From a virus: DNA of 41,462 nucleotides. The stretch spans positions 1 through 41,462 of the IMG/VR virus record IMGVR_UViG_3300042343_001567; one strand, 5' to 3'. Below the pieces are notes generated by a model. It was not told where the DNA came from. It searched no databases and worked only from the letters and a program-made list of their open reading frames with translations. The position numbers and the translations under genes were made by a program. Of this stretch, positions 10,846 to 41,462 are shown one piece after another. The number at the start of each line of letters is the position of its first letter. Positions within the stretch are counted from its first letter, which is position 1.

Positions 10846-11127
10846 TGACAGCTTGGAAAGACAAGCACTATCACGGATAAGAGCTGTTATTGTCAGGGTG
10901 AAACTTTTTCGCGAAGAGTTGTTGGTTCGACTTCAACCAATAATATAGTTTGTGTGTACAGCAAAAAAGAAAGCTCTTATCACGTGATAGTTAATGCGTA
11001 GGCTGATACGCTGAACCTATAAGTCTTTGTGTGTTGATTAGGGTGAAGTGAGCACTTCATAACAGTATTCGCAGTTTAGCTCAACTGGGTCACAAAGGAA
11101 AGTCGGAGTTCAGTACCGACAACTATC
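10846..11127 (+). repeat. RNA module 2
   Basis: Second copy, 74 bases longer because both variable arms are larger. One arm includes a TTGGTT/AACCAA sub-hairpin. The closing hairpin is GTCGG/CCGAC, a compensated version of module 1's GCTGG/CCAGC, followed by the same AACTATC. Confidence 0.8.
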
Positions 11128-11874
11128 TTTAAATTTACAATTGTCTAAATGATATTTTTTAATTGTATTTTTACCGATTAATCTATTACAATGTGGGCAT
11201 AATATTTTTATTTGAGACGTAAATTTTACGCCATATTTTTCTGTCATAGTATTTTGTTGTTTTTCTTTAATTTCCGGAGATTTTAACGGAATTTCAACTC
11301 CATAATTTTTTAATGTTGTTTCTCTTTTTTGTTGTTTTATAATCGGCGATTTCGATACATTATCGAATCCGTAAATTTTATTTAAAGTTTTTTTAGATTT
11401 ATTTTGTATTTTTTCTGAGGACAATGAATATTCTACTCCATGATTTTTTAATGTGGTTTCTTTTATTTTATTTCTAAATTCTATAGAATCCATAGCATTT
11501 GTTATATTATATTTTTCTATCATAGAATTTTTAAATTCCGTTGTTCCAAAAGATATTCCGGAATTATTATGTTTATTAAACCATAAATCTGATGCTGCAC
11601 AATTTAAAGTTTGTAAGAATAATGTTTCGTAATCATGTGGAAGTAATCCATCGCAATTAATATCAATCCTAAGAATTTCAAATGCAGATAATCCTTGGGA
11701 TTTTATGATGTAATTTATTTCTGAAGATGATGTTGTATAACCATTAATAGTCATAAATTCAGATGGGTGACAATTTTTAGCATATCGTGAACCTGCGTAC
11801 ATTTTATTAGATTCGATATGACGGATAATGTAAAAATATGGAATTGTTTGTGTATAAGTATTTGTGCTGAACAT
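11110..11874 (-). CDS. GIY-YIG-like endonuclease with repeats and zinc tail (254 aa)
   Basis: The N terminus (YFYIIRHIESNKMYAGSRYAK, residues 13-33) matches the GIY-YIG pattern, with Arg30 as the likely catalytic Arg and the Glu in YETLFLQTL as the metal ligand. Residues 130-225 hold four repeats of a TTLKNYGVE-PLKSPEIKEK type, usual in phage homing-type nucleases for DNA contact. The C terminus has CPHCNRLIG...HLDNC, a zinc finger. It is the only - strand gene in the first 15 kb. Its last codons run through the 3' end of the structured RNA. Probably a free-standing homing endonuclease. Confidence 0.8.
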   Translation of the reverse strand: MFSTNTYTQTIPYFYIIRHIESNKMYAGSRYAKNCHPSEFMTINGYTTSSSEINYIIKSQGLSAFEILRIDINCDGLLPHDYETLFLQTLNCAASDLWFNKHNNSGISFGTTEFKNSMIEKYNITNAMDSIEFRNKIKETTLKNHGVEYSLSSEKIQNKSKKTLNKIYGFDNVSKSPIIKQQKRETTLKNYGVEIPLKSPEIKEKQQNTMTEKYGVKFTSQIKILCPHCNRLIGKNTIKKYHLDNCKFKDSCRY

Positions 11875-30956: not shown

Positions 30957-32219
30957 ATGAAAATGTTATTTTTAATTCGTGGCGTTCCAGGCGCAGGTAA
31001 ATCTACACTAATTAAATCATTAAACGTTAACCTTGCGGTTTCCGCTGATGATTTTCACACAGACGCAGATGGTAATTATAACTGGACTCCAGAAAAATCT
31101 AAAGCTGGTCATGCATGGTGTCAATCAGAAGTCAATCGTGCGCTGCAATCCCCATTCATTGATAAAATCGCAGTTCACAACACATTTACGGTTTCTTGGG
31201 AAATGGAACCATATTTTAAAATGGCTAGAGAAAACGATTATCAAGTAACAACTTTAATCGTAGAAAACCGTCATGGCAATCAAAATATTCATGGCGTTTC
31301 TCCAGAAACAATTAAAAAAATGGTAGACCGATTTGAATTTAAATTAGCTCCAGATGTTAGATATGAAGATTTCGTAGCTAAAAAAGCACAAAATGGATTA
31401 ACTGTTCATAAATACAAACGCAAAGTATTCTATGATAATTTATGGAACATGCACCCAGATTTAGTTGATGCTCGTGGTTTGGTTACTGATAACCAAGATA
31501 ACATCGTACAATATCCATTTACTAAAATTTTTAATTACAAAGAAAATGGTGTGACAATAGCACTTGACCATAAAGTTATGGCGATTGATAAAATTAATGG
31601 TTTTATGGCTGCTGTTACTTGGTACAATGATGAGCCTTTGATTTCTACTACTGGTTCGTTATCTAGCGATTTTATCGCAATGGCTAAAGAAATGTTACCA
31701 TTAAATAAAATGTCAAAGATTCTTAAATTGTATAAAGACTACACGTTTTGTTTTGAAATTGTACACATAAATGATCCACATATTATCGAAGAAAAATTTG
31801 GTGCATATTTAATTGGTTGTCGCGAAAAAGTTAAAGGTTCTAAGCAAGTTAACCAAAAACTTTTAGATGGAATTGCCAAAAAATGGCATGTAATGCGCCC
31901 AGAAGTTCAATCAGGTTTGTTTCATGAAATATTGGAACAAGTTAAAACTTATAAGAGAGAAGGCTACGTTGTTTATGATTTGGATAGTGATACTGTTTTA
32001 AAACTTAAAACCCCATATTATTTAACATCAAAGTTTATTGCTAGAACTAAAAGATTAGAATTGATTTTTAGTGGTAATTATAAACAAAACTTTGATGAAG
32101 AATATTATTCTTTGTGTGAACATATACAAAAAAATTACACTAAAGAATCTTTCTTAGAAACTCCAGAGCAAGAACGTTTAGAATTTGTTCGTTCTTGGGC
32201 TGAAAATACTTTAAATTGA
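30957..32219 (+). CDS. polynucleotide kinase-RNA ligase fusion (420 aa)
   Basis: N-terminal kinase domain with P-loop LIRGVPGAGKST (residues 6-17) and SADDFHTD. It is followed from about residue 165 by a T4 Rnl1-like ligase: LVDARGLVTDN, FTKIFNYKENG, motif I DKINGF with Lys212, FCFEIVHI, REGYVVYD and VLKLKTPYY. It should phosphorylate 5'-OH ends and rejoin RNA, as T4 PNK and Rnl1 do for anticodon-cleaved tRNA. The 3'-phosphatase domain of T4 PNK is absent. I chose the ATG at 30957; a longer frame from 30924 overlaps the preceding gene. Confidence 0.88.
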   Translation: MKMLFLIRGVPGAGKSTLIKSLNVNLAVSADDFHTDADGNYNWTPEKSKAGHAWCQSEVNRALQSPFIDKIAVHNTFTVSWEMEPYFKMARENDYQVTTLIVENRHGNQNIHGVSPETIKKMVDRFEFKLAPDVRYEDFVAKKAQNGLTVHKYKRKVFYDNLWNMHPDLVDARGLVTDNQDNIVQYPFTKIFNYKENGVTIALDHKVMAIDKINGFMAAVTWYNDEPLISTTGSLSSDFIAMAKEMLPLNKMSKILKLYKDYTFCFEIVHINDPHIIEEKFGAYLIGCREKVKGSKQVNQKLLDGIAKKWHVMRPEVQSGLFHEILEQVKTYKREGYVVYDLDSDTVLKLKTPYYLTSKFIARTKRLELIFSGNYKQNFDEEYYSLCEHIQKNYTKESFLETPEQERLEFVRSWAENTLN

Positions 32220-32227
32220 GAGACATT

Positions 32228-32452
32228 ATGAAATTAGGCGAATATTTAGAAAATTTACAAGAATTAGTACGTGACCAACCAGAATTAATTGATGCTGAAG
32301 TTGTCTATTCAATTGATGATGAAGGGAATGATTATGGTGTTGTTAATTGGAATCCAAGCGCAGGTCATTTTGATAAACGCGCTAGAGAGTTTATTTCAGA
32401 ACATCATATAGAAGATGAAGAAATGCCAATTAATGCTGTTTTAATTAACTAA
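32228..32452 (+). CDS. conserved small phage protein, YSIDDEGN type (74 aa)
   Basis: The pattern MKLGEYLENLQELVRDQPELIDAEVVYSIDDEGNDYGVVNWNPSAGHF is one I recognise from short proteins of many phages. Acidic and mixed alpha/beta, with no known activity. It lies 8 bases after the RNA ligase fusion. Confidence 0.7.
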   Translation: MKLGEYLENLQELVRDQPELIDAEVVYSIDDEGNDYGVVNWNPSAGHFDKRAREFISEHHIEDEEMPINAVLIN

Positions 32453-32461
32453 GGATATAAA

Positions 32462-32725
32462 ATGAGTGATATTCCAGAAAGCGGTAAAGTATTGGTAAAA
32501 TTTAGTGCATCTTGGTGCTCTCCGTGTAAAGTGCTTGCATCAATTATTGAGAATAATCCTCCACCAATTCCTATCGTAGAAATTGATATTGATCAAGATT
32601 ATGAATTAGCAGATAAATACAAAGTTAGAGGTGTTCCAACATTAATTGTTTTTGAGAATGGAGAAGAACTTAAAAGGAAAGTTGGGTTAATAACAGCAGT
32701 ACAGTTACGAGATTTTTGTGGGTAG
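32462..32725 (+). CDS. thioredoxin-like protein (87 aa)
   Basis: Trx fold with active site SWCSPCK (Cys19, Cys22), strand KVLVKFSAS, IVEIDIDQD and cis-Pro loop VRGVPTLIVFENGEE. At 87 residues it is shorter than typical thioredoxin (about 105), lacking part of the N-terminal helix, as in T4-like thioredoxins. It probably supplies electrons to a ribonucleotide reductase outside the window, or acts as a general reductant. Confidence 0.9.
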   Translation: MSDIPESGKVLVKFSASWCSPCKVLASIIENNPPPIPIVEIDIDQDYELADKYKVRGVPTLIVFENGEELKRKVGLITAVQLRDFCG

Positions 32726-32729
32726 ATAT

Positions 32730-32930
32730 ATGAAAAAATTATTTTTAATTTTAATGTTGTTTTTAGTTTCAGTAACAGCTAATGCTCTTCCATGGTGGAA
32801 TGGTTTTATCTGGGTTAGTAGTACATGTGTAGCTCCATCTGGAAATTTCTGGGTTTATCCTCCAAATTGGGCGCGACCTGTTGGTGAAATGTGTAGGTTG
32901 CCTAGTGGGGAATATGGAATTGTTGAATAA
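32730..32930 (+). CDS. small exported protein (66 aa)
   Basis: Signal peptide MKKLFLILMLFLVSVTANA with cleavage after residue 19. The mature 47 residues are Trp/Pro rich with two Cys (STCVAPSG, EMCRLPSG), probably disulfide-linked. ATG overlaps the end of the thioredoxin gene region (GTAGATAT). No family recognised. Confidence 0.65.
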   Translation: MKKLFLILMLFLVSVTANALPWWNGFIWVSSTCVAPSGNFWVYPPNWARPVGEMCRLPSGEYGIVE

Positions 32931-32931
32931 A

Positions 32932-32965
32932 AGTGCTTGACATTGAAAAGGGTATAGCGTATAAT
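32932..32965 (+). promoter_or_regulatory. sigma70-type promoter P15
   Basis: TTGACA at 32937, TATAAT at 32960, 17-bp spacer, AGTGC block. The -10 lies mostly within the loop of the terminator-like hairpin at 32946-32981. Confidence 0.9.
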
Positions 32966-32983
32966 AACGTTATACCCTTTTTT
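32946..32983 (+). terminator. terminator-like hairpin overlapping promoter P15
   Basis: A 15-bp stem (14 Watson-Crick plus one G-U), AAAAGGGTATAGCGT with ACGTTATACCCTTTT, closes the 6-base loop ATAATA and ends in a T-run. Read through from upstream it looks like a terminator. It overlaps the promoter core, so it can end one transcript while the next begins. Confidence 0.65.
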
Positions 32984-32996
32984 ATTGGAGTTTGTT

Positions 32997-33545
32997 ATGA
33001 ATATTTTTTACCTTAATAATGATACCAAATTATGTGCACAGCAACACGTCGACAAACATGTCGTCAAAATGATTTTGGAAACTGCGCAGTTATTGTCTAC
33101 TGCTCATCGGGTTTTAGATGGCGTAGAAACTACAGGATTTTCGGCATCAGGTCGCAAGAAAAAAGTCTGGAAACTTAACAATTCCTATGACGATATTTTA
33201 TATTCAGCAACACATATAAACCACCCATCAGCGGTTTGGGTTCGTCATGGATTTGAAAATTATCAATGGCTTCATTCTTTGCTTGTAGAATTATGCAAAG
33301 AATACACCTATCGTTACGGTAAAACGCATAAATGCGAAGAAATTGGTTTAGTCGATAAATTACAATATGCTCCATTTAATATCTCAACTAAACTATTTAC
33401 CGAACCGACACCAGCTATGCCAGATGATTACATTGTAAAAGGTGATTCTATCCAATCATACCATAATTATTATAATGGCAGTAAAACTAAATTGCACAAC
33501 TGGAAATTTAGAAATATTCCAGAATTTATTATACAAAGTGCTTGA
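32997..33545 (+). CDS. conserved phage protein, HVDKHVVKMILETAQLLSTAHR type (182 aa)
   Basis: It begins MNIFYLNNDTKLCAQQHVDKHVVKMILETAQLLSTAHRVLDG and later has HINHPSAVWVRHGFENYQWLHSLLVELCKEYTYRYGK and PAMPDDY. I recognise this as a family found in many T4-like and other large phages, with conserved His/Asp that could be catalytic. Its function is not established. It ends Gln-Ser-Ala-stop from promoter P16. ATG after TTGGAGTTTGTT. Confidence 0.8.
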   Translation: MNIFYLNNDTKLCAQQHVDKHVVKMILETAQLLSTAHRVLDGVETTGFSASGRKKKVWKLNNSYDDILYSATHINHPSAVWVRHGFENYQWLHSLLVELCKEYTYRYGKTHKCEEIGLVDKLQYAPFNISTKLFTEPTPAMPDDYIVKGDSIQSYHNYYNGSKTKLHNWKFRNIPEFIIQSA

Positions 33546-33570
33546 CATTAAGTTATGTTTAGGGTATAAT
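33537..33570 (+). promoter_or_regulatory. sigma70-type promoter P16
   Basis: TTGACA at 33542, TATAAT at 33565, 17-bp spacer, AGTGC block overlapping the previous stop. Confidence 0.92.
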
Positions 33571-33597
33571 AAACTATAATTAATTGGAGATGATTAA

Positions 33598-34905
33598 ATG
33601 ATACTATCGTTATTAAATGAATTAGCAGCAACAACTAGTACCAATGACAAATTAGCTTTACTAAAATCACACAAAGAAGATAACCTAGTAATAGCTGTAT
33701 TTCGTTTAGCATATAATCCAAGAATTAAGTTTTGGATTAAAAAACGCCCAGAATTAAATTCTGTGTATCATAAAGTATATCATGAAGGTGATTTATATAA
33801 TGCATTGATTAAACTTGTTGATACTATAGCAGATAGAAAATTGACAGGTAATGCTGCAATTGAATACGTCAGTGGTTTATTAGAAAACCTTTGCCAATTT
33901 GATCAAGAAGTTTTATATCGAATTATTGAACGCGATTTAAAATGCGGTGTAAATACTAAACTAATTAACAAAGTTTGGAAAGATTTAATTCCAGAATACC
34001 CTGTTTTATTATGTGGTAAATTCAACGAAAAAACTGAAAAAAATATTAAATATCCAGCTATTTTTCAATGCAAAATGGATTCTTCTAGAATTAATTTTGA
34101 ATTTGATAATGGTAAATTCGTTTCAGCGACAACTCGTAACGGAAATGTATTAGATATTACCGAATTTGATGATATTGTTATTAGTGACACAAGTAGAGTA
34201 GTTCTTGATGGAGAATTAATGTGGCGTTATCCAGACGGTCGAGTAGCAGAACGTAAAGTTTCAAATGGTTATGTAACCAAAGCCGTTAGAGGAACGATTA
34301 CCGAAGAAGAGGCTAAAGGCTTGTATGCTGTTATTTGGGATTATATTCCTTATGAAGATTTTATACTAGAAGTTTGTAACATCCCTTATGTTAATAGATT
34401 TAGATTAGCAGTTGACGCTATTTCTAGTGAAAATGCTAAATTGATCATCGTAGAATCAGAGATTGTTAATTCTCGTGAAGAAGTAATGGAAAAATACCAA
34501 CGTAATTTAGAACGCGGTGAAGAAGGTGGTATCCTCAAATCAATTAATGGTATCTGGGAAGCAAAACGTAGTAAATATCAATTAAAACTCAAAGCTGAAG
34601 ATCATGCTGATTTATTAGTTGTTGGTTATACACTAGGAACTCCTGGAACTCAATTCGAGGGTATGCTTGGATCATTGCTTTGCCAAACTTCATGCGGTCA
34701 ATTAGAAGTTGGTGTTGGTAGTGGTTTTAAACATAAACGAGGTGAACGCGATAACCCAGAATCATATGTTGGTAAAATTATTCAAGTAAAATATAACTGT
34801 ATTATTTCCAATAAAGGTTCTGATAAAAAGTCATTATTCCTACCAATTTATGATGGAATTAGAGACGATAAAACTACAGCTAATTCATTAGAGGATTTAT
34901 TATGA
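33598..34905 (+). CDS. ATP-dependent DNA ligase, T4 gp30-like (435 aa)
   Basis: Helical N-terminal domain to about 140 (LYRIIERDLKCGVNTKLINKV is typical). The adenylation domain has motif I CKMDSSR with Lys159, VVLDGELMW, VIWDYIP, a motif IV-like EEGGILKS and KLKAE. An OB domain follows. The usual KxDG is KMDS here, so a conserved Gly is changed to Ser. It joins nicks in duplex DNA during phage replication. It is the first gene after P16 and overlaps the next gene by 4 bases. Confidence 0.9.
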   Translation: MILSLLNELAATTSTNDKLALLKSHKEDNLVIAVFRLAYNPRIKFWIKKRPELNSVYHKVYHEGDLYNALIKLVDTIADRKLTGNAAIEYVSGLLENLCQFDQEVLYRIIERDLKCGVNTKLINKVWKDLIPEYPVLLCGKFNEKTEKNIKYPAIFQCKMDSSRINFEFDNGKFVSATTRNGNVLDITEFDDIVISDTSRVVLDGELMWRYPDGRVAERKVSNGYVTKAVRGTITEEEAKGLYAVIWDYIPYEDFILEVCNIPYVNRFRLAVDAISSENAKLIIVESEIVNSREEVMEKYQRNLERGEEGGILKSINGIWEAKRSKYQLKLKAEDHADLLVVGYTLGTPGTQFEGMLGSLLCQTSCGQLEVGVGSGFKHKRGERDNPESYVGKIIQVKYNCIISNKGSDKKSLFLPIYDGIRDDKTTANSLEDLL

Positions 34906-35288
34906 TTCAAGAAGATTTTCCAGAATATATTAAACAAATAATCGCCGAGGCAAAAGAAGTATTATACACAGGCTCTAAATATATTTGCCCAACAGAACCG
35001 TATAACGATATCGATATTATGATATTGGTTGATAATATTGAAAAGTGGGAAGTGGAGCATCCGGTTGATTCTAAATGCGGAGCCGATGCAACATATCCAG
35101 ATGACGACATGGTAGCGTTTAGGATTGGCGATTTTAATATTTTAATTGCGGCTAAACCAGATTACTTTATTAAATGGCAGTTTGCAACTCAAATTGCTAT
35201 TGCATTAAACCTAGTTAAAAAGGAAGATAGAAAATATCTATTCAAAACAATTTTAGATAACGACGGAGTTAAAATTGAACACCTCTAA
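34902..35288 (+). CDS. nucleotidyltransferase-like protein (128 aa)
   Basis: LYTGSKYICPTEPYNDIDIMILVDN gives the GS...DxD pattern of the Pol-beta-type nucleotidyltransferase fold, followed by a GDFNILIAAKPDYFIKWQFATQIA stretch. Similar proteins are common in large phages. The DNA-ligase neighbour suggests a nucleic-acid role. Catalytic activity is uncertain because the third acidic residue is not obvious. Confidence 0.7.
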   Translation: MIQEDFPEYIKQIIAEAKEVLYTGSKYICPTEPYNDIDIMILVDNIEKWEVEHPVDSKCGADATYPDDDMVAFRIGDFNILIAAKPDYFIKWQFATQIAIALNLVKKEDRKYLFKTILDNDGVKIEHL

Positions 35289-35508
35289 ACGAATTATTGA
35301 TTTAATTACTCCAGATACTATAAATAAAACTATAGTGGTTGCGGCTGGATACAAATTTGAAGTTAGTGATACCGTTAACGATAAAATTTCAGGAGTGATT
35401 TTCTTTGGAGATTATCGTTATCCCGTTGTATGGGGTGCTGATGGATTTCCACTTAAAATAAAAGATTCTCCGGAATATTATCACCTTAGATTAATAGAGA
35501 AGAAATGA
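35275..35508 (+). CDS. phage hypothetical protein, TTG start (77 aa)
   Basis: The frame starts with TTG 6 bases after ACGGAG; there is no early in-frame ATG. Beta-rich (IVVAAGYKFEVSDTVND, IFFGDYRYPVVWGADGFPL). It overlaps the previous gene by 14 bases and the next by 4. No family recognised. Confidence 0.6.
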   Translation: MNTSKRIIDLITPDTINKTIVVAAGYKFEVSDTVNDKISGVIFFGDYRYPVVWGADGFPLKIKDSPEYYHLRLIEKK

Positions 35509-35729
35509 AAATAAATTATACAAACCCAAAATTAAAAACGCCATTAGCAAAATATGGAAAACTTCTTAATGGGTTTAACAATAATCAATTGGATGAAACT
35601 CAAACAAAAGAATTGATTAAATTATCTTCTCTGTTAATTAACGAATTAATTAAAGATACTCAGCGAACTAAAAAACTTTCCATGATGGATGGAGATGCGC
35701 TTAGATTACAAAAAAACCTTAGTGTTTAA
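35505..35729 (+). CDS. small helical phage protein (74 aa)
   Basis: ATGA overlap with the preceding gene and AGAGAAG upstream. Basic start (KINYTNPKLKTPLAKYGKLL), then a helical pair (TKELIKLSSLLINELIKDT). Function unknown. Confidence 0.6.
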   Translation: MKINYTNPKLKTPLAKYGKLLNGFNNNQLDETQTKELIKLSSLLINELIKDTQRTKKLSMMDGDALRLQKNLSV

Positions 35730-35743
35730 TTTTTGGAGTTATT

Positions 35744-36325
35744 ATGTTTATATTTGATGTGGAATCATTGGGCGTTGAGTCTAATTCCGTTATTTTGTCT
35801 GCTGCTATTGTTTACATAAATCCTGCTGAAAAAAATACATGGGAATCATTATACGAAAACACTTTGTTTGTTAAATTTAACGTAAAAGAACAAGTTAAAA
35901 AATATAATAGAATTGTATCAAAAGACACCATTGATTGGTGGAATAAACAATGTGACCTAGCAAAGAAACAAAGTTTTTATCCAAGCGATAAAGATTTATC
36001 TGCTAAAGAAGGAATTGCATGTATTCATAATTATATTAATTCGCATTGTGATCCAAAAACAACATTGATTTGGATCAGAGGTTCATTAGATCAACTAGTG
36101 ATGGATAGTTTGTGCACAGCTACCGGAGATGAATCTATTATGCCGTATGCAAATTATCGCGATATGAGAACGTATGTTGATTTAGTTGCTACTGAATCAA
36201 CACGTGGCTATTGTGCAATTAATCCAGAAACTTATCCAGGAACATGGGATCGAAACGTAGTTATTAAACACAATCCAATAGATGACATTGTTCTTGATGC
36301 CTTAATGTTATTATATCCAAGTTAA
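35744..36325 (+). CDS. dexA: DexA-like 3'-5' exonuclease (193 aa)
   Basis: DEDD-type exonuclease: IFDVESLGVESNSVILSAAIVYI supplies the first Asp/Glu pair (Asp5, Glu7), WIRGSLDQLVMDSL the second Asp and HNPIDDIVLDALML the His/Asp end. The order and the helical IDWWN element match T4 DexA and the Rv2179c-like family, though the length is shorter than T4 DexA. It degrades single-stranded nucleic acid. ATG after TTGGAGTTATT. Confidence 0.82.
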   Translation: MFIFDVESLGVESNSVILSAAIVYINPAEKNTWESLYENTLFVKFNVKEQVKKYNRIVSKDTIDWWNKQCDLAKKQSFYPSDKDLSAKEGIACIHNYINSHCDPKTTLIWIRGSLDQLVMDSLCTATGDESIMPYANYRDMRTYVDLVATESTRGYCAINPETYPGTWDRNVVIKHNPIDDIVLDALMLLYPS

Positions 36326-36327
36326 TT

Positions 36328-36474
36328 ATGAAACTTATTGAAAAATTTGTATTAGGTATTGTATTATTCTTTTTGTTATTACTGGCAGTTCCAGCTATAG
36401 CGATTAGAATTTCTGAATTAGCATTGATTGTTTTCTTTTTGGTTGTACTGCTAAATCTAGGAAAACCTAGATGA
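36328..36474 (+). CDS. small two-pass membrane protein (48 aa)
   Basis: Hydrophobic stretches FVLGIVLFFLLLLAVPAIA and ELALIVFFLVVLLNL cover most of the product, with a basic C terminus. The ribosome site is weak. The next frame overlaps its stop. Confidence 0.55.
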   Translation: MKLIEKFVLGIVLFFLLLLAVPAIAIRISELALIVFFLVVLLNLGKPR

Positions 36475-36629
36475 ATGGCGAGGTTTGGCCAGTAACTCGA
36501 AAAAACTTTAATAATCTTTCACTAAAGAAAAAAGTAGAAATATTAAATTATAGAAAAACGCTTGATAATACTATTGAACTTTTATTATTAAAGCGTAAAC
36601 TGTGTAAACTTTCTCAGGAAAGTAACTGA
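36471..36629 (+). CDS. small basic protein (52 aa)
   Basis: ATGA overlap with the membrane protein. Basic and helical (TRKNFNNLSLKKKVEILNYRKTLDNTIELLLLKRKL). Its end abuts the acceptor part of the tmRNA, so it is the last protein gene before the RNA. No family recognised. Confidence 0.5.
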   Translation: MNGEVWPVTRKNFNNLSLKKKVEILNYRKTLDNTIELLLLKRKLCKLSQESN

Positions 36630-36694
36630 ATTGTTGTAACTCCTTCAAAATGAAGGCATCTGAGACGAGGGTTCGAATCCCTCCAGCTCCACCA

Positions 36695-36782
36695 TAAACA
36701 TATTAGACTCAGAAGGTAGACTATTCGCGGTAATCTACTGAATGGTGATCGAGTTTAAAGACTCAAATAGTATGTTTTTGAT
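36695..36782 (+). other. intervening segment of the permuted tmRNA precursor
   Basis: AAACATA after the CCA end pairs with TATGTTT before the GGGGCTG, TAGACTC with GAGTTTA, and GTAGA with TCTAC. The spacer therefore folds back and holds the two halves together, as expected for a processed precursor. Confidence 0.8.
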
Positions 36783-36871
36783 GGGGCTGTCATGGTTTCG
36801 ATCAGGTGAGATAGTAGAGAAGGCAACACGAGAGATGACTGACGTAATCAGCATAAAACAAAGTAAATGCA

Positions 36872-36913
36872 GCAAATGATGCAAACTATGGAGATTACGC
36901 TCTAGCAGCGTGA
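36872..36913 (+). other. tmRNA tag-coding frame
   Basis: GCA AAT GAT GCA AAC TAT, then GGA GAT TAC GCT CTA GCA GCG TGA, gives the peptide ANDANYGDYALAA. A GCA just before (36869) could be the resume codon, adding one Ala. The YALAA end matches the E. coli-type ClpXP degron. Confidence 0.88.
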
Positions 36914-36953
36914 GATTAGCCTGAGATTAAACCACTTGGAAACAGAACGGTTA

Positions 36954-36980
36954 GGGGATGGGATGTTTCATCCCCGTTTT
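36954..36980 (+). terminator. terminator of the tmRNA
   Basis: Stem GGGGATG/CATCCCC with an 8-base loop followed by GTTTT, at the end of the RNA and 25 bases before the groES start. Confidence 0.8.
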
Positions 36981-37004
36981 ACATTATTAACTAAAGGAAA
37001 AATT

Positions 37005-37253
37005 ATGCAAGTATTAGCGAAAAATATTTTAATTTTAAAACATAAAAATGAATACACTGGATTAATTCAGGGAGTAGAGTCCGATGAAAATACATATGGT
37101 AAAATTTTAGGAATCGGAACTGATGTAACTACTGTTGAATTAGGTCAAATTGTTATGTTAGATTGGAATAAATCTAAAAAAGTAAAAAATGATTTGTATG
37201 TAATTCAAGAAGAAGATATTATTGCTATTTTGGAAGAAGAAGATTTAAAATGA
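37005..37253 (+). CDS. groES: GroES-like co-chaperonin (82 aa)
   Basis: Small beta-barrel pattern: VLAKNILILKHKN, a mobile-loop region (YTGLIQGVESDENTYGK), ILGIGTDVTTVELGQIVMLDWNKSKKV and VIQEEDIIAILEE. This matches the order of GroES/gp31 co-chaperonins at slightly shorter length (E. coli GroES has 97 residues). It would cap the GroEL ring encoded just downstream. The start at 37005 has AAAGGAAAAATT; an in-frame ATG at 36936 lies inside the tmRNA and is rejected. Confidence 0.85.
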   Translation: MQVLAKNILILKHKNEYTGLIQGVESDENTYGKILGIGTDVTTVELGQIVMLDWNKSKKVKNDLYVIQEEDIIAILEEEDLK

Positions 37254-37594
37254 TTAAACAATATACCAAACGCCCAGTTATAATTGATGCAGTTAAATTT
37301 GAATATACAGACGAATGCATCAATAGATTAAAAGAGTGGCTTGGGGATGAATTCGTTTCTTGTGGAAAAGAGCGACGTATGGATGCTAAAGGGTGGTTGC
37401 AAATCGGAACCCTAGAAGATGGACAGGATTCTTACCAAGTAAAACACATTGCAACAGAGGGTGATTACATTATTAGAGGTATTAAAGGTGAATTTTATGC
37501 ATGTAAACCCGAAATTTTTGAAGAAACGTATGAAGAAGTAGTCTATCGAGTTGTTGAAAAAGACTTCGATGAAGACACTTACTATGGATGTTAA
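37250..37594 (+). CDS. conserved phage protein, GDYIIRGIKGEFYACKPEIFE type (114 aa)
   Basis: The sequence starts IKQYTKRPVIIDAVKFEYTDE and ends in EGDYIIRGIKGEFYACKPEIFEETYEEV. I recognise this as a very common small family in phages of many hosts, of unknown function. It sits between the co-chaperonin and chaperonin genes and overlaps the former by 4 bases. Confidence 0.85.
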   Translation: MIKQYTKRPVIIDAVKFEYTDECINRLKEWLGDEFVSCGKERRMDAKGWLQIGTLEDGQDSYQVKHIATEGDYIIRGIKGEFYACKPEIFEETYEEVVYRVVEKDFDEDTYYGC

Positions 37595-37629
37595 TATAGA
37601 TTTCTAATTATATTAAACACTTAACTTAA

Positions 37630-39264
<1,635 letters not shown>

Positions 39265-39271
39265 AGTTTTA

Positions 39272-39292
39272 GACCTCAATTATTTTGAGGTC
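39272..39292 (+). terminator. hairpin after groEL
   Basis: Perfect 8-bp stem GACCTCAA/TTGAGGTC with loop TTATT just after the chaperonin stop. No T-run follows on the + strand, so it may protect the mRNA end or act as a weak terminator. Confidence 0.5.
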
Positions 39293-39302
39293 GCATAAGT
39301 GG

Positions 39303-39337
39303 GATGTCGAGCAATTAATGTTTTAAGGCTCGACATC
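39303..39337. terminator. second hairpin between convergent genes
   Basis: Perfect 10-bp stem GATGTCGAGC/GCTCGACATC with a 15-base loop, 10 bases after the first hairpin. No strong T-run on either side. Probably a transcription or decay barrier. Confidence 0.5.
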
Positions 39338-39375
39338 TAACAATAACGTGTTATAAATTTGGAAATACTAAAAGA

Positions 39376-39480
39376 ATGGATGTTAATGAATACAAATTGC
39401 AATATACAGATCCACAAAAATCAGAATGGGTATCTTGTATGTCTACCGAAGGAAAACGTCGCAAATTATTTAGAAGTTAA
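39376..39480 (+). CDS. possible very small protein (34 aa)
   Basis: MDVNEYKLQYTDPQKSEWVSC...KLFRS. No clear ribosome site, and its end overlaps the convergent cyclase gene by 15 bases. Phage-like composition, but low support. Confidence 0.35.
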   Translation: MDVNEYKLQYTDPQKSEWVSCMSTEGKRRKLFRS

Positions 39481-41460
39481 AATATAAATTCCTGTCCAAT
39501 CTAAAGGTAAATTTTTTGTTTTCATTTCTTTACATCTATCTATCCACATATTGTAATATTGATCCATTTCTCCTTCAAATTTACCTTTAAGATTTTCGCA
39601 ACAAATACTAGCTTCATCAAATTTCTGTTTACGATATAAAGATAGCATTTCAGAATGTAATAATACATCTTCGGTATTAATTTTAATGCGCGTATTAAAA
39701 GCTGTATAAATTTTAATACCTATTGTTTTACCTTTAACTTGAATTGTGTCTAATTCTAAAAGCGTAAAATCATCTTTAACTAATTCAGCTGTTGTTTCTC
39801 CAAGGATTAATAAAACGCCATAACCTTTGGTTTGCCCTTCTAATCTAGAAGTTAATGATACAGCATCCCCTAGCACATCATAGCCAAAACGATATTTTGA
39901 ACCGATGTTACCTACTAAAATTGGTCCAGAATTCACGCCTACTCCCATACCAACAGGTGGCTTACCAAGAGCAACTAACTGTTTATTAAATTCAGTAACA
40001 GCCTGTACCATTTCCAATCCAGTTTGCACAGCAACCTTAGCATGATCCGCATCATCTAATGGAGCACCGTGAATATGTAAACTTGCATCTCCAATAAACT
40101 TAATAATACAGCCATTATTTTTAAGTACAGGCTCAGAAATAGCAGTCATGTAATCATTCATAATCTGAGTTAACCCTTCAACATCATCACCATATGATTC
40201 ACCCAGAGTAGTAAATCCACGCAGATCCGTCATAACAGAGGAAAGAATTTTTCTTTCTCCACCTAACTTAATTAAATCTGGGTTTTTTTGTAAACGCTCA
40301 ACCATTACAGGGGAAACGTATCCACCAAATTGTTTTTTAATTTGCTCTTTTTGTAAATATTCAGAAAGGAATTTAACAGTATATGCATGACCATAAACTA
40401 ACGAAATTCCAACCACAAAAGCGGTAATATCAATCAGCATATTATAGCTCTGGAAGACCCAAGAAGCCGCGAAATGACTTACCCCTAGCGTTAGTATTAC
40501 TGGAGCAAATGCATACGTCCAGCGCGATGCAACGACAACTATAATGCCTCCTAGAAATATAGCTAAAATTTCAGCCATATCTACCCAGTCTGGTCGTTCT
40601 ATAACTACACCATTAATCATCGTTGAAATAACAGCTGCTTGTACGTCTTGAGGATAAACTGCCCCAATAGGTGTTGATAAAGGATTAGAGATACCAGCAG
40701 CACTAGTTCCAACAATAACCACAGCGCCACTAAAATCAGCTGGAATATCAGTAATGCTTACTGATTTATTTTTTTGACTCCAATCAATCCAGATTCTACC
40801 AAGGCTATCTGTTGTAACTGGACCAAATGATGGGATACGAAGTTTTTCCACGCCCAATTCATTTAATTTAATTTGAAACGTTGTATCCTGCGCAAGAACT
40901 CGTAGCGTTTCTAAACTTAATGCTGGATATAATTTACCATCAACTGATGTTACTAATGGAACTCTACGATTAACGCCATCAATTTCGGGTAATGTATTTG
41001 TCGTTCCAACACCAGCAGAACTATTTTCTAAAACAGGAATGTTAGAGATTATTCCAGGATAGCGAACTATTTTATCTTGATATTCCGGATTTAATATTAC
41101 CGATCCTGGATTTTTTGGAGTATTTTTAGTTTTACTTGCAGGAACACTAGGTAAAACAACAGGTAATACTTTTAAAGTTTGTTCTAATTTATCATCTCCA
41201 CCTAATCGATCAGTTTCACTCATTAAAACGTTAAATACAACTAATCCTGCATTATGTAAATACAATGTTTCTACTGTATCTGCATAAAAATCGCGTTTAA
41301 ATGGCCACTGACCATTTTTATCTAATGCTGCTTCATCAATGTTAACTGTATAAACATTATTTTCTGTTGGAGCTTTAGATGTAATTAATGTGTCGAAATA
41401 TTTTAATCGGGTGGAAGACACAAAGTATGGATCATCTATTCGTATACATATTACAATCAA
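39466..41460 (-). CDS. CHASE2-transmembrane-class III adenylate cyclase (664+ aa, N terminus probably cut by the window)
   Basis: The CHASE2 sensor (residues about 15-290) shows YTVNIDEAALDKNGQWPFKRDFYADTVETL and GAVVIVGTSAAGI. Three hydrophobic helices lie at about 297-365. The cyclase domain (about 402-590) has metal Asp412 (MTDLRGFTTL) and Asp458 (KFIGDAS). Lys454 and Asp528 fit ATP choice, and Arg539 is kept, but the transition-state Asn (VNLASR) is Ser535 (VSLTSR). The visible frame starts 3 bases from the window edge, so an N-terminal signal anchor is probably missing. It would make cAMP in response to a periplasmic signal, if active. This type is common in proteobacteria and unexpected in a phage. 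Confidence 0.9.
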   Translation of the reverse strand: MIVICIRIDDPYFVSSTRLKYFDTLITSKAPTENNVYTVNIDEAALDKNGQWPFKRDFYADTVETLYLHNAGLVVFNVLMSETDRLGGDDKLEQTLKVLPVVLPSVPASKTKNTPKNPGSVILNPEYQDKIVRYPGIISNIPVLENSSAGVGTTNTLPEIDGVNRRVPLVTSVDGKLYPALSLETLRVLAQDTTFQIKLNELGVEKLRIPSFGPVTTDSLGRIWIDWSQKNKSVSITDIPADFSGAVVIVGTSAAGISNPLSTPIGAVYPQDVQAAVISTMINGVVIERPDWVDMAEILAIFLGGIIVVVASRWTYAFAPVILTLGVSHFAASWVFQSYNMLIDITAFVVGISLVYGHAYTVKFLSEYLQKEQIKKQFGGYVSPVMVERLQKNPDLIKLGGERKILSSVMTDLRGFTTLGESYGDDVEGLTQIMNDYMTAISEPVLKNNGCIIKFIGDASLHIHGAPLDDADHAKVAVQTGLEMVQAVTEFNKQLVALGKPPVGMGVGVNSGPILVGNIGSKYRFGYDVLGDAVSLTSRLEGQTKGYGVLLILGETTAELVKDDFTLLELDTIQVKGKTIGIKIYTAFNTRIKINTEDVLLHSEMLSLYRKQKFDEASICCENLKGKFEGEMDQYYNMWIDRCKEMKTKNLPLDWTGIYILTSK

Positions 41461-41462
41461 AA

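Follow-up and report, generated by a model that had tools for sequence, protein, structure and literature searches.

A CHASE2 nucleotide cyclase encoded at the end of a phage contig

The DNA analysed here (the window) is a linear virus record of 41,462 bases, IMG/VR IMGVR_UViG_3300042343_001567, and the gene of interest is read on its minus strand from the very end of the contig. The gene and its parts are as follows.

39466–41460, minus strand: gene for a CHASE2–transmembrane–class III cyclase protein; its 5′ end is lost at the contig end, and the first 15 residues are found in contig L002
40540–41448, minus strand: CHASE2 sensor domain, predicted periplasmic (residues 5–307; Pfam PF05226, E = 1.1e-38)
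40444–40587, minus strand: transmembrane helices linking the sensor to the catalytic domain (helices 307–326 and 333–354, L002 numbering), where domain shuffling and gene splits fall in relatives
39724–40233, minus strand: class III nucleotide cyclase catalytic domain (residues 410–579; Pfam PF00211, Guanylate_cyc, E = 4.2e-18)

The preliminary description of this sequence had called the protein a sensor joined through transmembrane helices to a class III cyclase, and we confirmed this: the reading frame is genuine, with 664 codons open up to the contig end, and both Pfam matches exceed their curated cut-offs (for CHASE2, 133.7 bits against 26.3). Comparison with the 100%-identical L002 shows that the TTG "start" at 41460 is the contig edge rather than a true start; the L002 copy continues for 15 more residues to an ATG (MKKILLSPYWAILTL...), giving a full protein of 679 amino acids, with an N-terminal helix at residues 8–24 (L002 numbering). 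An AlphaFold2 model built from a 35-row alignment has a mean pLDDT of 89.5, and its C-terminal part matches solved class III cyclases in Foldseek (3r5g, E = 1.5e-15, TMt 0.89). The PHROG family phrog_35576, listed as of unknown function, matches the protein over its full length (E = 8e-199); an NCBIfam search with the cyclase gave no match.

The position of the gene at a contig end, on the strand opposite to its neighbors, would fit host DNA or a chimeric assembly, which the preliminary description had named as the finding that would overturn a phage assignment. However, the junction recurs at 100% identity in two other contigs, L002 (window 36686–41462) and L003 (window 31182–41391), which rules out this explanation and leaves it a negligible probability. 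The isolates Melnitz (a Methylophilales phage; ~40% identity, full length) and HTVC008M (36%) encode homologs amid T4-like genes, and IMG/VR yielded homologs in 95 stretches in one scan and in at least 589 in a second that used the catalytic domain as query; bacterial relatives are at most 34% identical among the matches listed. A further contig, L012, is largely collinear with window 29–41 kb except for GroEL, and mostly 83–94% identical. Other window genes match phage families too: DNA ligase (phrog_114), exonuclease (phrog_255), two RNA ligases (phrog_968 and phrog_562), an endolysin-like gene (phrog_669), and GroEL (phrog_5725). We conclude that this end of the window is phage DNA, because the junction repeats, isolates carry homologs, and phrog_35576 is a full-length family; the cyclase is phage encoded, as the preliminary description had held.

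Three features lie on the window side of the gene.

37642–39264, plus strand: GroEL chaperonin, convergent with the cyclase gene (Pfam PF00118, phrog_5725)
37008–37253, plus strand: GroES-like co-chaperonin (phrog_3188, E = 1.3e-5)
36602–37004, plus strand (also delimited as 36560–37004): circularly permuted tmRNA (ARAGORN; Rfam RF04321 and RF01850)

The chaperonin island to which attention had been drawn earlier is real as far as its GroEL and GroES-like genes go, but it is not meaningful context for the cyclase, because GroEL is absent next to most relatives (it adjoins the cyclase only in the lineage of the window and in a handful of relatives, among them L050, L051, and L054) and the conserved neighbors are curli, or type VIII secretion system (T8SS), genes beyond the window. 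The tmRNA, a few kilobases from the cyclase, fits both the permuted and the betaproteobacterial models and lies on the same side of the cyclase in L012 and L213; this may hint that the host is betaproteobacterial. There is also a homing endonuclease-like gene at window 11110–11874 (minus strand).

In relatives the cyclase closes a curli-secretion cassette

Relatives from many aquatic phages place the cyclase in a curli-secretion cassette, where it closes a run of genes on one strand, csgF-csgG-curlin-fecR-(curlin)-...-cyclase. At least 7 kb of upstream sequence is present in 44 loci, which are not independent and include several near-copies. In 36 of them this sequence contains cassette genes in the same orientation as the cyclase, and 29 have csgF, csgG, curlin, and fecR in this order, followed at most by one more curlin gene. 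The csgG gene falls outside the 10-kb flank in 11 loci, the longer records having it elsewhere in the record, for example 13–19 kb upstream of the cyclase on the same strand in L027, L034, L037, and L047. Five of the 11, all shorter fragments (10 to 42 kb), gave no csgG match. In L034, L037, and L047 (contigs of 95–329 kb), csgG is separated from the cyclase by about 16–19 kb of additional sequence.

Because the contig ends inside the cyclase, we infer the window's own cassette from L004, L006, L007, and L012 (~83–85% protein identity); in relatives including L006, L007, and L012 the cyclase follows csgF-csgG-curlin-fecR and shares their strand. Curated Pfam models recognize CsgF, CsgG, Curlin_rpt, and FecR, together with a DNA/RNA non-specific endonuclease, in L012, long parts of which are 85–94% identical to the window. 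In L002, which represents the window's exact lineage, all that is visible upstream of the cyclase is a remnant of a nuclease gene and an open reading frame (ORF) resembling a homing endonuclease. This ORF (L002:300–1139, no Pfam match) is inserted directly upstream of the cyclase and is preceded by the remnant of the secreted-nuclease gene. The L012 endonuclease (L012:9172–9930) has a likely signal peptide and overlaps the start of the cyclase gene; such an overlapping endonuclease is present in the window's clade and in L050, L051, and L054.

There are further variations around the cassette. A metallophosphoesterase and a glycosyltransferase-like gene are inserted between fecR and the cyclase in L007 (5435–8358) and L012 (7227–9146), and in L066 (1799–7300) the arrangement is inverted: the curli cassette comes after the cyclase and is read from the other strand. 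Just upstream of csgF, L012 (1815–4339) codes for a GH19 hydrolase and several small membrane-like ORFs, a gene content that suggests a lysis neighborhood. Short "histidine kinases" near the csgF position are reported by Wittmers et al. (PMC9599517); Pfam showed no histidine kinase in the two small ORFs tested from the L012 region upstream of csgF.

Curli genes are known in pelagimyophages (Zaragoza-Solas et al., PMC7029224), and the Melnitz CsgGF pore has been proposed to act in lysis (Buchholz et al., PMC9004378), in a text that leaves the cyclase unmentioned. Wittmers et al. 2022 (PMC9599517) describe an adenylate cyclase of alphaproteobacterial affinity in the viral T8SS region, as well as metatranscriptomic expression of a related marine cassette, so that the existence of a phage cyclase is in itself no novelty. 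The window gene resembles this pelagiphage cyclase, which ends a csgF-csgG-csgA/B-FecR-csgA/B array and is represented by HTVC008M I899_gp019, a CHASE2-cyclase homolog with 36% identity over 87% of the window protein. It also resembles Melnitz gp104 (QZI94833; PMC9004378), which is ~40% identical over its full length and has the curli cassette upstream and a tmRNA nearby.

Bacterial CHASE2 cyclases, such as Sinorhizobium meliloti CyaD1, CyaD2, and CyaK and a Bradyrhizobium protein (L085), share the CHASE2–transmembrane–cyclase architecture but differ in their surroundings. No csgG, csgF, or curlin gene, and hence no bacterial curli-cyclase cluster, was found in the fetched flanks of the best 80 bacterial loci among the matches listed, a set biased to the nearest relatives; this agrees with the statement in PMC9599517 that the adenylate cyclase and FecR are missing from bacterial T8SS operons. 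Some bacterial CHASE2 cyclases do lie beside FecR: a FecR gene is within 300 bases of the cyclase in 15 of these best 80 listed loci, and the two also adjoin on a Rhizobium plasmid. The FecR-cyclase pair therefore looks older than its phage version, and it would be a bacterial module that was joined to curli genes in phages.

An altered active site shared by most phage cyclases

Two motifs of the catalytic domain, read in the sequence and the alignment, depart from the canonical form.

40060–40092, minus strand: derived motif GDASLHIHGAP (canonical GDxxMAFW[GN]AP), in which the second metal Asp is followed by HxH
39844–39882, minus strand: derived motif YDVLGDAVSLTSR, in which the purine-specifying residue is Asp, the transition-state Asn is replaced by Ser, and the Arg is retained

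Bacterial CHASE2 cyclases have GDxxMAFW[GN]AP and Y[ST]xxGDxVNxxxR, such that four substitutions set the derived site apart: the Ala and Trp that follow the second metal Asp become HxH, Ser/Thr at the purine site becomes Asp, and the transition-state Asn becomes Ser. The first motif reads GDA[ST][LM]H[VI]H[GN]AP in 76 of 83 phage loci and the second YDxLGDxVSxx[AST]R in 75 of 83. Among 97 distinct phage proteins (those with both motifs readable), 90, including the window's, have HH/Asp/Ser, six have AW/Ser/Asn, and one has AW/Thr/Asn, with no mixtures. HxH, Asp, and Ser are each absent from all 80 of the best bacterial CHASE2 cyclases among the matches listed, every one of which has the canonical site at no more than 34% identity. 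HTVC008M, unlike the window and the other derived proteins, keeps the canonical active site, and Melnitz gp104 has the derived one.

The remaining catalytic residues are intact. The metal-binding Asp pair (D427 and D473 of L002) is present in 83 of 83 phage loci, as is Lys at the substrate-specifying position; its partner is Asp in 75, Ser/Thr in seven, and unaligned in one. Lys with Asp is the standard ATP-specifying pair, typical of adenylate cyclases. The Asn-to-Ser change is found in the window and in 75 of the 82 aligned loci, and the Arg is kept wherever it could be aligned.

A DNA pattern for the HxH motif (one exact pattern) is absent from 766 bacterial genomes (12 + 385 + 369), a sample of many thousands, and occurs in at least 120 viral stretches, some of them confirmed as cyclases. 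We also looked for a bacterial source of the derived domain: there is none in the 12, 385, and 369 genomes, and the two top plasmid matches (47–50%) are canonical. The four-substitution site, carried by 90 of 97 distinct phage proteins and by no sampled bacterium, appears to be new. For informative, truly divergent pairs, dN/dS of the catalytic domain is mostly 0.02–0.10, and this domain is usually under tighter constraint than the sensor; such strong purifying selection indicates function.

These data bear on whether the protein is simply an ordinary adenylate cyclase, with active-site changes that are near-neutral drift and a curli link due to shared transcription only, which raises host cAMP and works via a CRP-type regulator of the host. 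This reading fits the Lys/Asp pair and the canonical site retained in seven phage proteins, and the transition-state Asn is not obligatory in class III cyclases, Rv1900c being active with His there (PMC4886424). Drift, however, accords poorly with four changes that always come together, with no mixed form among 97 proteins, and with the strong purifying selection, although common descent alone would likewise hold the four together; nor does shared transcription alone fit well with a gene order kept with the cassette across very divergent phages. We regard an ordinary cyclase as somewhat unlikely, if a serious contender.

A proposed envelope-sensing role

The reading we prefer, and hold with about even confidence, is that the cyclase serves as the envelope-sensing signaling component of a curli (type VIII secretion) cassette carried by the phage and makes a purine cyclic nucleotide for a host receptor. 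CHASE2 would read the state of the envelope from the periplasm, probably that of the CsgG/CsgF pore, curlin-like proteins, or FecR, and the transmembrane helices would relay the signal to the class III cyclase domain, acting as a homodimer. The product would most likely be cAMP, since the enzyme retains both metal Asp residues, the Lys/Asp pair, and the Arg; Ser in place of the transition-state Asn could lower or alter activity, and the rise in host cAMP that the preliminary description envisaged is less certain because the active site is altered. Late in infection, the product would act on a host receptor to change the envelope, metabolism, or the timing of lysis. A search of 28 phage records with the cNMP-binding domain (Pfam PF00027) gave no match, so that a phage-encoded candidate was set aside and a receptor would probably belong to the host or be of a different type. 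The closest worked precedent for such a mechanism is S. meliloti, in which CHASE2 cyclases respond to an outside protein by way of NsrA, a barrel in the outer membrane, and exert their effect through Clr, a regulator of the CRP family (PMC13001267).

Loss of the transition-state Asn could alternatively mean a pseudo-cyclase with little or no catalytic activity, retained because it serves in the membrane as a sensor or partner and, together with the GH19 hydrolase and small membrane proteins, sets the time of lysis or pore opening. The GH19 and membrane-like genes upstream of csgF in L012 and the lytic role proposed for the CsgGF pore (PMC9004378) are in line with this, but no metal or substrate residue has been lost and constraint is usually tighter on the catalytic domain than on the sensor, so we consider it very unlikely. 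The earlier suggestion that the enzyme feeds or overloads a cyclic-nucleotide defense found no support. A product that floods or starves a Pycsar- or CBASS-type system would draw on the distant homology between the class III cyclase domain and that of Pycsar PycC, but the PycC match is weak (its PADLOC score is below that of an ordinary bacterial CHASE2 cyclase), no Pycsar-type effector partner was seen, and the constant partners are secretion genes rather than a defense island; counter-defense is thus highly improbable. Pycsar itself (PycC plus effector) was rejected, as the 28 records lack PF00027 and the neighbors are nuclease, FecR, and curli genes.

Domain shuffling and split genes

Sensor and catalytic domains have different histories in some phage cyclases. 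Identity in CHASE2 and in the catalytic domain, respectively, is 32% and 90% for L016 with L076, 91% and 54% for L052 with L073, and 57% and 36% for Melnitz with HTVC008M; the switch in identity falls near residues 300–380. In the CHASE2 tree, L076, L079, Melnitz, and HTVC008M group together (SH-aLRT 98), so that Melnitz gp104, unlike the window protein, carries a CHASE2 domain of the other phage sensor clade. This grouping, fixed from the CHASE2 tree before the catalytic tree existed, is rejected by the catalytic-domain data (AU p 0.00014), both trees being quick searches. The catalytic tree puts all derived domains in one clade (SH-aLRT 100) with the canonical L052 beside it (SH-aLRT 99), which suggests that the derived active site arose within phages. 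Shuffling of sensor and catalytic domains between phages appears to be new, and neither it nor the substitutions and gene splitting are described in the part of PMC9599517 available.

The single derived clade, not found in 766 bacterial genomes, and the fact that the purine-specifying and transition-state residues changed jointly with two residues on the strand after the second metal Asp would also be expected of a phage-specific signaling enzyme with a different product or substrate rather than an adenylate cyclase; we think this quite unlikely, given that Lys and Asp form the standard ATP-specifying pair. A broader idea, which we offer tentatively as unlikely, is that the cyclase domain with HxH, purine-site Asp, and Ser for Asn is a class that arose in aquatic phages and differs in its chemistry or product. 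It would travel between phages as an interchangeable module fused to different envelope sensors and, coupled to the secretion pore that the phage encodes, would form a second-messenger circuit of the phage's own during infection. Phage second-messenger enzymes with a periplasmic sensor are little known, and an active site apparently rebuilt within phages, strong selection, and the tie to a curli cassette make this a concrete enzyme for testing: its product would tell whether phages address the host via cAMP or something else, and its sensor would give a handle on the role of the phage curli cassette.

Some relatives have the gene in two pieces, a CHASE2–transmembrane half and a transmembrane–cyclase half, in L213 (3916–6879; also L214 and L216) and, separately, in L190 (1938–4815). 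The split point in all four is the shuffling junction, and insertions that split a cyclase gene at its sensor-catalytic junction appear to be new. A group I intron was considered, and there was no Rfam match in L213 or L190. In L213 and L216 the halves are separated by a GIY-YIG-like homing endonuclease ORF (recognized by motif only, not by family search), and in L190 by a different insert; homing endonucleases would be a plausible agent of the shuffling.
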